Source: Flavobacteriales bacterium (lineage in GTDB: Bacteria > Bacteroidota > Bacteroidia > Flavobacteriales > BACL11). Taken from it: a DNA stretch of 33,776 nucleotides. Where the stretch lies: contig JACNLP010000020.1 of assembly GCA_014381465.1 (NCBI GenBank), positions 1 through 33,776 on the forward strand, in the 5' to 3' direction. Position numbers and translations under genes: made by a program. How positions within the stretch are numbered: position 1 is the stretch's first letter; every line of letters starts with the position of its first letter. The notes below the pieces were generated by a model. It ran no database searches, had not been told where the DNA came from, and saw only the letters and a list, made by a program, of their open reading frames with translations. Of this stretch, positions 7,921 through 14,163 are shown piece after piece.

Positions 7921-8259
7921 ATGAAAATTGAGAACACTAAATCGCAAATGAGAAAAGGAATTTTGGAATACTGCATCCTTTCCATATTAAAAAATGGAGA
8001 GGCCTACCCTTCTGATATTATTGAAAAGCTTAAAAAAGCAAAAATGATAGTTGTTGAAGGGACGCTTTACCCCCTACTCACTCGCTTAAAAAATGCTGAA
8101 ATACTTACTTACAGATGGGAAGAATCTTCCTCAGGACCTCCTAGAAAATATTACTCTTTAACTGTAAAAGGAATAGGTTTTTTAACAGAATTAGATAATA
8201 CTTGGAAGGATTTAGCAAAAGCAGTACGATTAACAACTAAAACAAAAAAAGATGAATAA
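7921..8259 (+). CDS. PadR-family transcriptional regulator
   Basis: Winged helix-turn-helix repressor of 112 aa, a small PadR subfamily-2 type lacking the long C-terminal dimerisation region. Conserved segments are GILEYCILSILKNGEAY (helix 1), EGTLYPLLTRL (recognition helix, roughly 47-57) and GPPRKYYSLT (wing). It probably controls this operon: a palindrome overlaps its own -33 element. It overlaps the PspC gene by 8 bases, so the two are translated together, an arrangement that links a sensor-like membrane protein to its regulator. The inducing signal is unknown. Confidence 0.93.
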   Translation: MKIENTKSQMRKGILEYCILSILKNGEAYPSDIIEKLKKAKMIVVEGTLYPLLTRLKNAEILTYRWEESSSGPPRKYYSLTVKGIGFLTELDNTWKDLAKAVRLTTKTKKDE

Positions 8260-9790
8260 AACAGTAAACATTAACCTAGCAGGAATTGTATTTCATATTG
8301 ATGAGGATGCTTTTGAAATATTGAACAATTACCTAAATGCACTTAAAAATCATTTTAAAAATGAAGAAGGAGCTGATGAAATATTAAAAGATATTGAAGG
8401 AAGAATTGCTGAACTTTTTACAGAACGATTAGATAAAAAAGAGGCGATTTCAATTGCAGATGTGAATGAGGTAACTGCAATAATGGGAAATCCATCTGAC
8501 TATGATGATGATTTTATTGAAGAAAAAGTTGAAAAAACAGAAGACTTACTAAAAAATAAAAGAAAGCGAATTTTTAGAGATGAAGATGAGCGAATGATTG
8601 GTGGAGTTTGTAGCGGATTGGGAAATTATTTTGATATTAATGTTTTTTGGTTCAGAATAATTTTTCTTGCACTCCTTTTCACAGTTGGTGGAGGAACATT
8701 AATCTACATTATCTTATGGATTGCTATTCCTTCAGCAAAAACAACTGCTGAAAAACTAGAAATGAAAGGAGAAAAAGTAAACATCTCAAATATTGAAAAA
8801 AATATTAAGGATGAACTAGACAACCTAGAAACAAAAGTTAAAGATTTTGACAAGAAAGTTACTTCAGAATATGGCTCTAAGGCAGTAAGTTTTGTTCAAA
8901 AAATTACAGATTTATTTATCAGTTTATTTAAAGGAATTTTCAAATTTTTAGGAAGTTGCTTTGGGATTTTTGCAGTTGTAATAGGTGGAATTCTATTATT
9001 TGTAATTGTATCAGCACTACTTTCTAATGGTATAATCTTTTTAGAAATCAATCAATTACTGAGTTATATTTTTGAATCAGGAACAATCCCTGGAAACTTA
9101 AAAGCAGGGCTTGTACTATTCATTGGGATACCTATAATTTCCGTAATATTATTTGGTTTAAAACTAGTAAACAATACAACAATTCATTCAAATCATAAAA
9201 TTGCATTACTATTTCTCTGGTTAGCATCTTGGGTAATACTTGGAAGTTCTGGTACAAACATTGCAGCAGAGTTTCAAAAGAATGCTAAACACTCAACAAC
9301 TGAAATTATCAATTTTCAAAATGACACACTATACTTAAGCATGAATGATGTTGATAGAGAATTTGATATTGTTTTTGATGCAAAAGGGTTTAAAGTGAGT
9401 CCGTTTGAGGATGAACTTATAGGAATTGGAATGAGATTAGACCTTAAAGAAAGTCAAGATTCCATCTTTAGTTTGATTAAAGAAGCAACTGCTTTTGGAA
9501 AAAGCAAATCTAATGCTAAGATAAGTGCACAGGGAGTTTCTTTTAACTTCCTAGTAGAAGATGACAATCTTATATTTGATGATTTTTTCTCCATTGAAGA
9601 GCAAAAATGGCGTATGCAAGAATTAGATTTAACCCTAGAAATTCCAATTGGAAAAGTGATTTATTTAGACCATAGTATAGAAGATTTAATTTATGACATA
9701 AAAAATCAAGAAAACATGTGGGATTACGATATGCTAGGGCATTACTGGAAAATGGAAAAAGAAGGACTTAGTTGTATTAGTTGCCGATAG
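8252..9790 (+). CDS. PspC-domain membrane protein
   Basis: Membrane protein of 512 aa. The N-terminal 1-100 region (NKTVNINLAGIVFHIDEDAF...) is the cytoplasmic extension often found with PspC domains in Bacteroidota. A PspC domain follows at about 104-165, with KRIFRDEDERMIGGVCSGLG and a membrane helix pair ending IILWIAIP. Further hydrophobic segments lie around 227-250, 281-300 and 318-335. The last 170 residues are soluble, and the C-terminus carries a CxxC pair (SCISCR). In proteobacteria PspC takes part in the phage-shock envelope stress response; here a role in sensing membrane state together with the PadR regulator is an inference from the overlapping genes. Confidence 0.9.
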   Translation: MNKTVNINLAGIVFHIDEDAFEILNNYLNALKNHFKNEEGADEILKDIEGRIAELFTERLDKKEAISIADVNEVTAIMGNPSDYDDDFIEEKVEKTEDLLKNKRKRIFRDEDERMIGGVCSGLGNYFDINVFWFRIIFLALLFTVGGGTLIYIILWIAIPSAKTTAEKLEMKGEKVNISNIEKNIKDELDNLETKVKDFDKKVTSEYGSKAVSFVQKITDLFISLFKGIFKFLGSCFGIFAVVIGGILLFVIVSALLSNGIIFLEINQLLSYIFESGTIPGNLKAGLVLFIGIPIISVILFGLKLVNNTTIHSNHKIALLFLWLASWVILGSSGTNIAAEFQKNAKHSTTEIINFQNDTLYLSMNDVDREFDIVFDAKGFKVSPFEDELIGIGMRLDLKESQDSIFSLIKEATAFGKSKSNAKISAQGVSFNFLVEDDNLIFDDFFSIEEQKWRMQELDLTLEIPIGKVIYLDHSIEDLIYDIKNQENMWDYDMLGHYWKMEKEGLSCISCR

Positions 9791-9813
9791 AAATAAAAAG
9801 ATATATTTACAAA

Positions 9814-11292
9814 ATGAAAAAAACCTTCTTTTGTTTAGTAAGTATTTTTCTCCTGCTTACTAATGCTACTGCACAAACTAATATTCCCTCTGACACAATA
9901 GTTAGCGCTACTTTAAGTGGCACTATATTGGATGAAAAAAATGAACATCCTCTTCCCTATGCAAATATTATAAACTTAAATAACGGAAAAGGAACCATCA
10001 GTAACGAACACGGAAATTTCACAATAGATATTGCGAACTTAAAAATGAATGACACTATTCGTTTCCAGTGTATTGGTTACAAAACAAAAGAGTTAACGAT
10101 TGAGCGTATTGCAAACACCACTCCTATTTTATTGAGTGAAAATATTTATACCCTTGATGAAGTGCTAAATCTAGGAACTTTTCCTAATCCAGTAGAAATT
10201 GTAAAAGGTATTTTAGAAAATAGAGAACTGAATTACAAAAACACACCACATAAAAAACAAGTTTTTATCAGAGAAAGAAGCACTACAGATATTCTAAATT
10301 TTAAACTAAATTTCAAAAAAAGTAACATCTCAGAACTAAACCCTGAAATGATACAAAAAATTGAAGAAAAAACACCAAAGCACTCACAATCTTACTCTGA
10401 TTTATTAACTAATATTTATATTCAAGAAGAGGCGAACTTAAAACTTGTCCCAATAAAAACGGTAGCATTAAAATCAGAAGATATTACCGAATTAGATAAC
10501 TTTATGCCATTAATAGAAAGTGTATTTAAAAACACTACAGAAGAAGAGTATTGGAGAGTTAAAACTGGAATACTTGGAATTAAAGTAAACTTTATTGCTC
10601 CAGACTCTACAAAAAAAGAAAAGTTAAGACCTTATAAGAATAGTATAAAAGATTATTTAGGTTTTACAACTTTTAATGATGAAGATCAGTGGGAATTTTT
10701 ACACAAAACAAAAAAGTATAATTTTAAAATCATTGGAGGAACATCTATAGATAATGAAAGTGTTTACATTATTGATTTCACACCAAAAAAGAAAGGGGTA
10801 TATGAAGGCAGGCTTTATATTTCTGTTGAAACTTCTGCTTTAATTAGAGCGGATTACAAATATAGTCCTGATAAATTAGGAACAAATATTCAAATTCTAG
10901 GAATTGGATATAAACAAACTAATTTTACTGGCTCAATCTATTTTGAGAAGAAAGAACATAATTACCAACTGAAGTATCTTTCCTATCAAAATAACTACAA
11001 AGTAAGTATTGACAGAAAAATTGCTTTACAAAAGAAGAAAAAACGATTCTTAATTAACAAAAAACTTCAAGAGATAAAAGTAGGTTTAGACTTTACTCAG
11101 GAGAATAATGAATCAATAGAGTTATTGGTGATTGATCAATTTCCAATATCAGAACAAAGTTTTGACAAATTTGAAGAAGGAAAATATATGGACATTACAT
11201 ATGTTAATCAATTTAACGAAAACCTTTGGAAAGGCTACACTACAATAACCCCTACTAAACAAATGAAGGAATACAAAAAATTAGAAAAATAA
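9814..11292 (+). CDS. Secreted protein with carboxypeptidase-regulatory-like domain
   Basis: Exported protein of 492 aa. I chose the ATG at 9814 because it gives a clean signal peptide (MKKTFFCLVSIFLLLTNATA); an upstream in-frame TTG at 9781 would overlap the PspC stop. After the signal comes a CarboxypepD_reg-like beta-sandwich (LSGTILDEKNEHPLPYANI ... GKGTISNEHGNFTIDI), common in Bacteroidota surface proteins. The remaining 370 residues are rich in beta strands and Lys, with no catalytic motif that I recognise. There is no TonB plug or barrel, so it is not a SusC-type receptor. It lies 23 bases after the PspC gene and 18 before the M1 peptidase, in the same operon. Function unknown. Confidence 0.82.
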   Translation: MKKTFFCLVSIFLLLTNATAQTNIPSDTIVSATLSGTILDEKNEHPLPYANIINLNNGKGTISNEHGNFTIDIANLKMNDTIRFQCIGYKTKELTIERIANTTPILLSENIYTLDEVLNLGTFPNPVEIVKGILENRELNYKNTPHKKQVFIRERSTTDILNFKLNFKKSNISELNPEMIQKIEEKTPKHSQSYSDLLTNIYIQEEANLKLVPIKTVALKSEDITELDNFMPLIESVFKNTTEEEYWRVKTGILGIKVNFIAPDSTKKEKLRPYKNSIKDYLGFTTFNDEDQWEFLHKTKKYNFKIIGGTSIDNESVYIIDFTPKKKGVYEGRLYISVETSALIRADYKYSPDKLGTNIQILGIGYKQTNFTGSIYFEKKEHNYQLKYLSYQNNYKVSIDRKIALQKKKKRFLINKKLQEIKVGLDFTQENNESIELLVIDQFPISEQSFDKFEEGKYMDITYVNQFNENLWKGYTTITPTKQMKEYKKLEK

Positions 11293-11310: not shown

Positions 11311-14163
11311 ATGAAAAAAATAACTCTAGCCCTACTTAGCATATTAAGTATCAACTTATCAGCTCAAGAATATTTTCAACAAGAAACAAACTATATTATT
11401 GATGTAGAACTTGATGATGAAAACCATACACTAAATGGAACAGAACACATTGATTATTTCAATAATTCACCTGATGATTTAGAATTTCTGTGGTTTCATA
11501 TCTGGCCAAATGCTTATAAGGATAATACTACTATGCTTGCAAAACATGAATTAGAAGGTGGAAGCACTCAACTTTATTATGCAAGTGAGGAAGAAAGAGG
11601 TTATATAAATGGATTAGACTTTAAAGTAAATGGAGAAAGAGTAAGATGGGATTACCATCCTGAGCATATTGATATTTGTAAATTATTCTTAAACAAACCT
11701 TTAAAATCTGGACAATCCATCAGAATTTCCACTCCCTTTTTTGTGAAAATTCCTGATGCAAAATTTTCTCGTTTAGGTCATGTTGATCAATCCTACATGA
11801 TAACACAATGGTACCCAAAACCTGCGGTATATGATGTGGATGGTTGGCATCCTATGCCCTACCTAAGTCAAGGGGAATTCTATTCAGAATTTGGGAGCTT
11901 TGATGTAAGCATTACATTGCCAAGCAACTACACAGTTGGGGCAACTGGTGATTTGCAAAACAAAGGAGAAATTGCTCGCTTAAATAAAATTGCAGAAGCA
12001 ACAGATACTATTACAAAATATGGAGATGATATGAGTTTCCCCTTATCAGATTTAAGTACAAAAACATTAAGATATATTCAACATAATGTGCATGATTTTG
12101 GTTGGTTTGCTGATAAGCGTTTTCATGTATTAAAAGGAGAAGTTGAAGTGCCTCATACTAAAGAAAAAGTTACCCTTTGGACTATGTTTACCAATAATGA
12201 AGCTCACCTTTGGAAAAACTCCATAGAGTATATGCATGATGCTGTTTATTATTATTCTTTATGGAATGGTGACTATCCTTACAAACATTGTACTGCAATA
12301 GATGGAACTATTGCTGCAGGAGGAGGAATGGAATATCCGAATGTTACTGTAATTGGAGCTAGTGGAACTGCAAGAGCACTAGAAGAAGTAATAATGCATG
12401 AAGTAGGACACAATTGGTTTTATGGAATGTTAGGATCTAACGAAAGGGATCATGCTTGGATGGATGAAGGAATAAATTCTTATAATGAACATAGGTATAT
12501 GAGAACTAAATATCCGAATGAAAAGATAACAGACAACCTACCAAAAATTGCTACTAAATTATTCGATTTGGAAAAAGTAACCAATAAAAATATAAGGGGA
12601 GAAATGATGTATTTTATGGGAGCATGGACTGCAAAAGATCAACCTATTGAACTCCATTCAGCAGAATATACAGAAATGAATTATGGCGGAATAGTGTACA
12701 TGAAATCTGCTATTTGTTTTGATTATCTGGCAGCATATTTAGGACAAGAAATTTTTGATGATTGTATGAAAGAATATTTTGAAACTTGGAAATATAAACA
12801 CCCACAACCAAAAGATGTAAGAGCAATTTTTGAGGAAGTAAGTGGTAAAGATTTATCATGGTTTTTTGATGATATGATAAAAACAACCAAGCAATTAGAC
12901 TATGCAATTGTTGGCATGAAAAAAGAAACTAAGGATTTACTCATTACATTAGAAAATAAAGGAGAGATAAACGGGCCTGTTATTATAAGCGGAATTAAAG
13001 ATGGACAAAGTATGACTCCACTATGGATTGAAGGCTTTGAAGGTAAAAAAACAATTCGTTATTTTAATGGTGATTACGATCATATCCGAATTGATTATAA
13101 TGGAGATATGCCTGAAACAAACAGGAACAACAATATCATGCGTACTAAAGGAATTTTCCGAACAATTGAACCTATAAAACCTCAGCTAATTGGAAGTTTG
13201 TACCATCCAGAAAAGACACAAATATTCTTTCATCCAATGATGAATTACAATATTTACAATAAGCATTCTTACGGATTAAGTTTATACAATCATTTTATAC
13301 CAAAAAAGGGATTTTCTTACAAACTAACTCCTCTTTACAATATAGAAAATCAGAACCTATTAGGACAAGGTAAGATATCTTATAAAAAACACTTAAAAAA
13401 TAATTTAATTGAGAGTTATAAAATAGAATTAGATGCAAAAAAGAATAAGTACGCATATGAAAGCAATTACCTCCGTTTGGTTCCAAATCTTGAGATAAAT
13501 TTAAGGAACTCATCATTAAGAAGCAAAACAAGAAATACAATTAATGCGAATATTATTGACATAACAAAAGGAGAAAACAAGGATCGTTTCTTTAAAAGCA
13601 CCTTTAATCATAGCAATGGCAGAGCAATAAATCCTTATAGTATTTTTACTTCTTATGAAAAAGGCAAGGATTATTATAAATTAGGACTTGTTGCAAAATA
13701 TACTTACAATTTGAACAAAAGCAAGCTGCTCAAATTCAGAGGATATTTAGGATACACTGACAAACATATTCTTCAAATGAGCGCTTGGAACGGTAGCATG
13801 GATTACGCCTTAAGCAATGAAGCTATAAGTAGAGAAACTGACAACAATCATGATTTACCTTATGCTCAACAACTATTTATGAATGAGGGAGGGTTAAAGC
13901 ATTTCACTGGAATTACATCTAGCCAATATCTTGCAACTCTATCAGCCGAATACAATTTAACGAATAGATTCAGGCTATATGCTGAAGGAGGAACAAATGG
14001 TACTGACCTAGCTTATGGGGCTGGTTTACGCATTCCTTTACTCCAAAATATTGTTAATATTTACTTGCCTGTTTATACTAAAAATGGAATGGCAGACTTT
14101 AAAAATTACCAAGATATTTTCAGGTTTAATATCAACTTTGACTTTAAACTAAGTTTATTTTAA
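11311..14163 (+). CDS. M1-family metallopeptidase with C-terminal beta-barrel-like domain
   Basis: Exported zinc metallopeptidase of 950 aa with a signal peptide (MKKITLALLSILSINLSAQ). The M1 catalytic core has GGGMEYP (Met340, Glu341), HEVGH at 363-367 and the third ligand Glu386 (HEXXH-X18-E). From about residue 625 to the end the sequence changes character: alternating hydrophobic/polar strands, many Tyr, turns rich in Asn/Gly, and a final strand FRFNINFDFKLSLF ending in Phe, as in outer-membrane beta-barrel proteins. I infer that the protease is held on the outer membrane by its own barrel; this needs a structural test. It is the last gene of the PadR-PspC operon and a distant paralogue of the M1 gene at the left edge. 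The terminator at 14269-14299 follows. Confidence 0.93.
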   Translation: MKKITLALLSILSINLSAQEYFQQETNYIIDVELDDENHTLNGTEHIDYFNNSPDDLEFLWFHIWPNAYKDNTTMLAKHELEGGSTQLYYASEEERGYINGLDFKVNGERVRWDYHPEHIDICKLFLNKPLKSGQSIRISTPFFVKIPDAKFSRLGHVDQSYMITQWYPKPAVYDVDGWHPMPYLSQGEFYSEFGSFDVSITLPSNYTVGATGDLQNKGEIARLNKIAEATDTITKYGDDMSFPLSDLSTKTLRYIQHNVHDFGWFADKRFHVLKGEVEVPHTKEKVTLWTMFTNNEAHLWKNSIEYMHDAVYYYSLWNGDYPYKHCTAIDGTIAAGGGMEYPNVTVIGASGTARALEEVIMHEVGHNWFYGMLGSNERDHAWMDEGINSYNEHRYMRTKYPNEKITDNLPKIATKLFDLEKVTNKNIRGEMMYFMGAWTAKDQPIELHSAEYTEMNYGGIVYMKSAICFDYLAAYLGQEIFDDCMKEYFETWKYKHPQPKDVRAIFEEVSGKDLSWFFDDMIKTTKQLDYAIVGMKKETKDLLITLENKGEINGPVIISGIKDGQSMTPLWIEGFEGKKTIRYFNGDYDHIRIDYNGDMPETNRNNNIMRTKGIFRTIEPIKPQLIGSLYHPEKTQIFFHPMMNYNIYNKHSYGLSLYNHFIPKKGFSYKLTPLYNIENQNLLGQGKISYKKHLKNNLIESYKIELDAKKNKYAYESNYLRLVPNLEINLRNSSLRSKTRNTINANIIDITKGENKDRFFKSTFNHSNGRAINPYSIFTSYEKGKDYYKLGLVAKYTYNLNKSKLLKFRGYLGYTDKHILQMSAWNGSMDYALSNEAISRETDNNHDLPYAQQLFMNEGGLKHFTGITSSQYLATLSAEYNLTNRFRLYAEGGTNGTDLAYGAGLRIPLLQNIVNIYLPVYTKNGMADFKNYQDIFRFNINFDFKLSLF

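Follow-up and report, generated by a model that had tools for sequence, protein, structure and literature searches.

A peptidase family M1 protein with a predicted Omp85-like outer-membrane barrel in Flavobacteriales, and relatives that have lost the M1 active site

Enzymes joined to Omp85-type barrels of the outer membrane are few to our knowledge. Barrels of the Omp85 type have both of their ends in the periplasm. Classical autotransporters (type Va) have a C-terminal barrel of 12 strands, and the usual C-terminal domain of an M1 aminopeptidase is helical.

The best studied enzyme-Omp85 protein is PlpD of Pseudomonas aeruginosa, a patatin-Omp85 (type Vd) in which an N-terminal enzyme is carried on a C-terminal, 16-strand barrel. 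Contrary to earlier belief, its enzyme domain has been shown to be periplasmic, according to the text available from PMC11116518. Ten Omp85 subfamilies, patatin and “Metallo” among them, were defined by the part that precedes the barrel (Heinz and Lithgow 2014, PMC4104836); in the available text of that paper, some subfamilies also lack POTRA domains. The subfamily section of PMC4104836 describes no M1 group, and the word “peptidase” has 0 matches in its main text.

The protein analyzed here would be of the same known kind, i.e., an enzyme on an outer-membrane barrel; what is new is an M1 version of it with a recurrent pseudo-enzyme. It shares with PlpD the order of enzyme and predicted barrel, but has an M1 domain rather than a patatin, and its family shows recurrent loss of the active site. 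In the “Metallo” subfamily (PF00149 plus barrel), a metal-dependent hydrolase likewise takes the place of the POTRA domains (PMC4104836, available text), whereas in the present protein the hydrolase is an M1 peptidase (PF01433) and not PF00149. A fusion of an M1 domain to a barrel was not found described in the open-licence literature searched, which is a weak negative.

The window, that is, the whole stretch of 33,776 nucleotides analyzed (contig JACNLP010000020.1 of assembly GCA_014381465.1), contains an open reading frame at 11311-14163 on the plus strand that encodes 950 amino acids (Table 1). A Pfam scan matched Peptidase_M1 (PF01433) at aa 352-520 with 65.8 bits against a cut-off of 27.7, and all six active-site residues (E341, H363, E364, H367, E386 and Y463) are in place, which bears out the complete M1 core claimed in an earlier note on this DNA. 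By the PF01433 match, HExxH-x18-E, the GxMEN-type motif and the tyrosine, the window protein is assigned to peptidase family M1. All 50 Foldseek matches listed for the full-length model are M1 aminopeptidases, and they come from the front part. Up to about aa 595, motifs and domain order are the same as in LTA4H, PepN and the cold-active aminopeptidase 3cia; in the full-length AlphaFold2 model the M1 small beta domain ends before aa 600. Beyond this point, a membrane barrel is predicted where these enzymes usually have their helical domain.

Table 1. Features of the M1-barrel gene and of the left-edge paralogue, with coordinates in the window.
Feature	Residues (aa)	Window position	Strand	Basis or remark
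Probable signal peptide	1-19	11311..11367	+	Sequence reading only; lipobox Cys absent
M1 (gluzincin) peptidase part	20-595	11368..13095	+	PF01433 match; Foldseek of full-length model; order: N-terminal beta domain, catalytic domain, small beta domain
GGGMEY, GxMEN-type substrate motif	337-342	12319..12336	+	N replaced by Y
Zinc site HEVGH-x18-E	363-386	12397..12468	+	Kept in 32/32 active-type rows
Catalytic Tyr position, Tyr463	463	12697..12699	+	
Conserved linker, M1 part to barrel	596-635	13096..13215	+	Alignments A1 and A2; conservation; low-confidence in model
Predicted 16-strand outer-membrane beta-barrel, Omp85-like	636-941	13216..14133	+	AlphaFold2; full-length model; Foldseek; VIA-align
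Long conserved loop, strands 11/12, at place of Omp85 loop 6	817-872	13759..13926	+	
YGAGLRIPLL, strand 14	902-911	14014..14043	+	G905 invariant in 45 rows
N-terminal part of M1 paralogue, cut by contig end		2..1627	-	Relatives ~1055-1100 aa, with second barrel-like tail bearing LRGY

The remaining ~330 residues (aa 621-950, 13171-14163) had been described from the letters as having lost peptidase-like features, and they match nothing in Pfam or NCBIfam, nor any PDB sequence even at an E-value of 10. Scanning 45 relatives of the tail singly produced scattered matches only, with no consistent family. AlphaFold2, supplied with a shallow alignment of 16 aligned tails (A2), returned a model with a pLDDT of 70.9 and a pTM of 0.70, in which 16 strands were counted by eye, the final one being four residues long. 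A full-length model built from 18 rows (pLDDT 63.9, pTM 0.42) has nearly the same strand boundaries. Both sequence marks noticed earlier are present, since YGAGLRIPLL forms a strand of the model and the protein ends in Phe.

When the tail model was searched against the PDB with Foldseek, the best 50 of 81 matches (E<=0.001) were all to TamA, BamA or Sam50. The top match was to TamA (E 5.1e-7) and the matches listed include BamA of Flavobacterium johnsoniae; TM-scores by query length were low, at 0.29-0.43. VIA-align also placed Sam50 first (Z 14.4, 255 aligned residues, rmsd 5.4), with porins and TonB receptors within one Z unit. Hydrophobic alternation in the tail strands scored 2.70 compared with 1.36 for shuffled strands, and 0 of 2000 shuffles scored as high. 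However, strands of the soluble M1 part alternate about equally (2.52), so alternation alone is no proof of a barrel; the alternating strands reported earlier are thus real but not barrel-specific. This similarity, and the moderate confidence of the model, are what one would expect if the tail were a soluble, beta-rich accessory domain of the peptidase that forms no membrane barrel. That reading is nonetheless improbable: the predicted topology is one of long neighbouring strands, the Foldseek matches listed are only to membrane barrels, and the small beta domain of M1 enzymes is already complete upstream of the tail. A beta-sandwich, a HEAT-like domain and a described M1 C-terminal domain, which the earlier note had set against its own proposal, were all not found. 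On the models, therefore, the proposed architecture of an M1 peptidase with a C-terminal outer-membrane barrel is well supported.

The segment that leads from the linker into strand 1 (aa 596-645, 13096-13245) is among the best conserved parts of the protein, in forms with and without an active site alike, and yet the model renders it poorly; it may act as a plug or touch the M1 part.

An Omp85-like fold is the best reading of the predicted barrel, short of proof. With BamA, TamA and Sam50 it shares the predicted barrel fold and the position of the long conserved loop, in which D831, Y832, R841, Q854 and G860 are near-invariant. In contrast to those proteins, and to PlpD with respect to the first two of these traits, the window protein lacks the loop-6 RGF/Y and POTRA domains and has no sequence-profile link to the group. 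The tetrapeptide (V/I/L)RG(F/Y) occurs in loop 6 in none of 45 rows; it is present in four of them, always in strand 11. No POTRA domain was found in the window protein, for which the Pfam scan gives M1 only. Profile searches of the PDB with alignments A2, A3, A4 (40 of the 45 rows) and, for the paralogue tails, A5 (32 of 35) yielded no Omp85 match, and in hhalign the barrel reached 0.2-1.9% against the family's BamA barrels (28 of 30 loci). With TonB receptors and the paralogue tail included alongside BamA, the values were 0.2-17%, with the TonB control about equal to BamA, so the power of this comparison is low. The Pfam Omp85 model (PF01103) did not match the tail, but it gives no match anywhere in this genome and so misses even its BamA (L084). 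Because the loop-6 RGF/Y and POTRA domains are absent, the barrel is called Omp85-like here and the protein is kept outside the Omp85 family, membership in which is not proved.

Two other candidates were considered and rejected. DUF5686, a suspected relative, did not turn up in any of 41 genomes from the window's family. The BAM complex of F. johnsoniae was examined as a possible home of the protein, and in the available text of PMC12611786 and PMC12578637 it has no peptidase-like subunit (“peptidase” occurs 0 times in each).

A second M1 gene lies at the left edge of the window. It had been described as cut off just where a tail would begin; this cut is a contig break, and the other half of the gene (G000:C15:1-1635, L107) carries its own tail with an RGY motif. 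The paralogue and the family of the window protein are aligned by hhalign at 100% over profile columns 49-685 (about aa 20s to 659), i.e., homology spans the M1 part and reaches the first strands of the barrel. When the remainder was aligned by force, which has no statistical weight, GGL was set against GGLNLRGY and the last four strands matched. The GGLNLRGY of the paralogue tail resembles loop 6 of BamA (LRGYSNNSxSP), and [LIVM]RG[YF] is present in 32 of 35 rows of paralogue tails, compared with 29 of 30 rows of BamA. The paralogue is possibly a second, and truer, M1 fusion of the Omp85 type.

These comparisons bear on whether the barrel could derive from another outer-membrane family, such as a porin-like protein or a transporter, that merely resembles Omp85 and serves as a plain anchor for the enzyme. 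The near-equal VIA-align scores of porins and TonB receptors would fit such an origin, as would the missing sequence link, loop-6 motif and POTRA domains. Even so, it is unlikely, given that all 50 Foldseek matches listed belong to the Omp85 superfamily, that in the 16-strand model the only long conserved loop joins strand 11 to strand 12, the Omp85 arrangement, and that a homologous paralogue carries the loop-6 motif at nearly the frequency of BamA. A plain anchor would also leave unexplained a barrel that is more conserved than its enzyme, a point taken up below.

The architecture was first taken to be unusual, which did not hold up: 102 of the order's 196 genomes have the tail, a conserved stretch and no junk. 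Phylum-wide it was found in 66 of 395 genomes, which include several families of the class and also other orders. The barrel-anchored M1 form is old in the class. Within the phylum-wide listing, 47 genomes of the same order besides the window's own have the tail and one (G088) does not. In the window's own family, a match that reaches the C-terminus was found in 16 of 52 genomes, its own included, many of these genomes being incomplete. On these counts the barrel form is patchy in that family, so it is not a core protein there.

In close relatives, the gene is accompanied by ubiA, padR and pspC upstream and by DUF3467 and rpoC downstream, and in farther relatives this neighbourhood dissolves. 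Inspection of a LOG-like protein, a dehydrogenase E1-like protein (both labels given by sequence reading) and PspC/PadR revealed no functional partner among the gene neighbours. In the window, the segment at 7921-9790 (+) encodes a PadR regulator and then a 512-aa PspC protein fused to HAAS-, LiaI/LiaF-TM- and toast-rack-like domains; the padR-pspC pair is kept before the M1-barrel gene in several families. Directly upstream of the gene, at 9781-11292 (+), is a 503-aa protein with CarbopepD_reg_2 at aa 45-128 and ~370 further residues without a convincing Pfam match, which does not stand beside the M1-barrel gene in the close loci compared.

Other arrangements of M1 genes were encountered as well. 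For example, at locus L185 (G440, family f18) a 524-aa, barrel-less M1 protein with HExxH directly precedes a barrel-bearing one, forming a tandem of free and anchored enzymes. Five genomes of family f1 (G042, G043, G049, G050 and G051; loci L019-L023) are close relatives with a barrel-less M1 protein of 646 aa. In family f19, a barrel match at G249:C45:59501-60625 is split over two reading frames, one of them interrupted by a TAG, and may represent an M1-barrel pseudogene.

While the window protein has a complete active site, many of its relatives do not. In six families of the order (labelled f2, f3, f4, f6, f8 and f13), the M1 active site is gone and the barrel is kept. Among 47 tail-bearing loci, HExxH-x18-E is missing in 40 and kept in seven, one of which (L108) is the window itself; several genomes are represented twice in this set, and some recur among 32 loci chosen separately. 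The latter, which were hand-picked for their spread over families, keep the motif in 19 cases and lack it in 13, so that 13/32 is not to be read as a frequency. In the 45-row set, which excludes five partial rows of A1 (L068, L072, L073, L075 and L076), 32 active rows keep all six residues. The 13 rows without HExxH-x18-E have other residues at nearly all six sites, E341 and E364 persisting in one row each and E386 in two.

Loss of the active site is accompanied by a reversal in the order of conservation. Mean pairwise identity of the active rows (n=32) is 0.49 in the catalytic part and 0.27 in the barrel, whereas in the dead rows (n=13) it is 0.24 and 0.36, respectively. The front parts of the dead forms are still homologues of M1: hhalign against active forms of other orders gave 100% with an E-value of 8.3e-64 over 524 columns. 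One dead copy (L181) follows padR-pspC, as does the window gene, and this shared position supports orthology. When the dead label was mapped on a tree built only from the linker and the barrel, three changes were needed, at least two of which are forced by well-supported branches. A single dead clade was rejected at a modest p-AU of 0.037, with four end branches that are long. On this tree, the active site has been lost at least twice in the order.

It could be argued that decay has turned the dead relatives into pseudogenes, or that they are unrelated proteins with only the barrel in common, since Pfam finds M1 weakly or not at all in them and five of eight dead proteins have no M1 match at E<=0.01. 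This is very improbable in light of the homology described above, open frames of 893-970 aa and the tail being held by all but one of the same-order genomes of the phylum-wide listing. Moreover, dN/dS is about 0.04-0.07. In the two closest dead pairs whose synonymous sites were unsaturated in both parts (L119-L135 and L129-L133; dS about 0.7-1.1), the M1 part gives 0.04 and 0.07, respectively, and the barrel 0.04 in each pair; both halves are thus under purifying selection, and the dead M1 domain is not debris. A separate, barrel-less M1 protein of 611-649 aa with HExxH is kept in all 11 dead-lineage genomes checked; only the anchored copy has thus been affected by the loss. Catalysis was repeatedly lost while the barrel, linker, loop 6 and M1 fold were kept, hence the lasting function most likely lies elsewhere. 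This suggests that cutting of peptides is not the indispensable function of the anchored form.

From these features, a route for the protein can be proposed. The probable signal peptide would direct export by Sec, and the tail is predicted to form a 16-strand, Omp85-like barrel inserted in the outer membrane. The M1 domain would then be suspended from strand 1 on the periplasmic side, much like the POTRA domains of BamA or the patatin of PlpD. Since both ends of an Omp85 barrel are periplasmic, the M1 domain is expected in the periplasm. The earlier note had allowed for a surface or a periplasm-facing enzyme; by analogy with Omp85 topology and PlpD, the periplasmic side is more likely and the surface less so.

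A surface location would follow if the barrel acted as in autotransporters and passed the M1 domain to the outside, where it would serve as a surface aminopeptidase. An enzyme at the N-terminus and a barrel at the C-terminus is how type V secretion proteins are built, and surface peptidases would help marine Flavobacteriales to use peptides as food. Such export is quite unlikely, however: the modelled barrel has 16 strands rather than the 12 of the classical type, in the dead relatives there is no working catalytic domain for which export would pay, and PlpD itself was once thought to work in this way and was found to be periplasmic (PMC11116518, available text).

A probability of about 0.72 is placed on the periplasmic reading, namely a self-anchored M1 protein of the outer membrane whose enzyme domain is periplasmic and whose conserved role at that membrane is non-catalytic. 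In the window species, with its complete active site, the M1 enzyme is probably active, with the trimming of peptides at the outer membrane's inner face as its likely task. Across the family the lasting role at the outer membrane would be structural or one of binding, the M1 fold serving as a periplasmic arm of the barrel; handling of outer-membrane proteins or lipoproteins is one example of a possible task. A bolder and less probable extension is that in Bacteroidota the M1 fold replaced the POTRA domains as the periplasmic arm of an Omp85-like machine. Cutting would then be an ancestral activity that can be spared, and in several Flavobacteriales families the protein would be a pure pseudo-peptidase, binding client chains that are to be inserted into the outer membrane or passed across it.

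For the family, these losses amount to a natural experiment that has been run several times across a class-wide architecture, each time taking away the active site and sparing the barrel. The co-existence of two barrel-bearing M1 paralogues, one with RGY and one without, offers a route to how loop 6 was lost or reshaped. The M1 label alone is insufficient for counting such genes as peptidases, and a gene annotated as a peptidase becomes a candidate outer-membrane factor.
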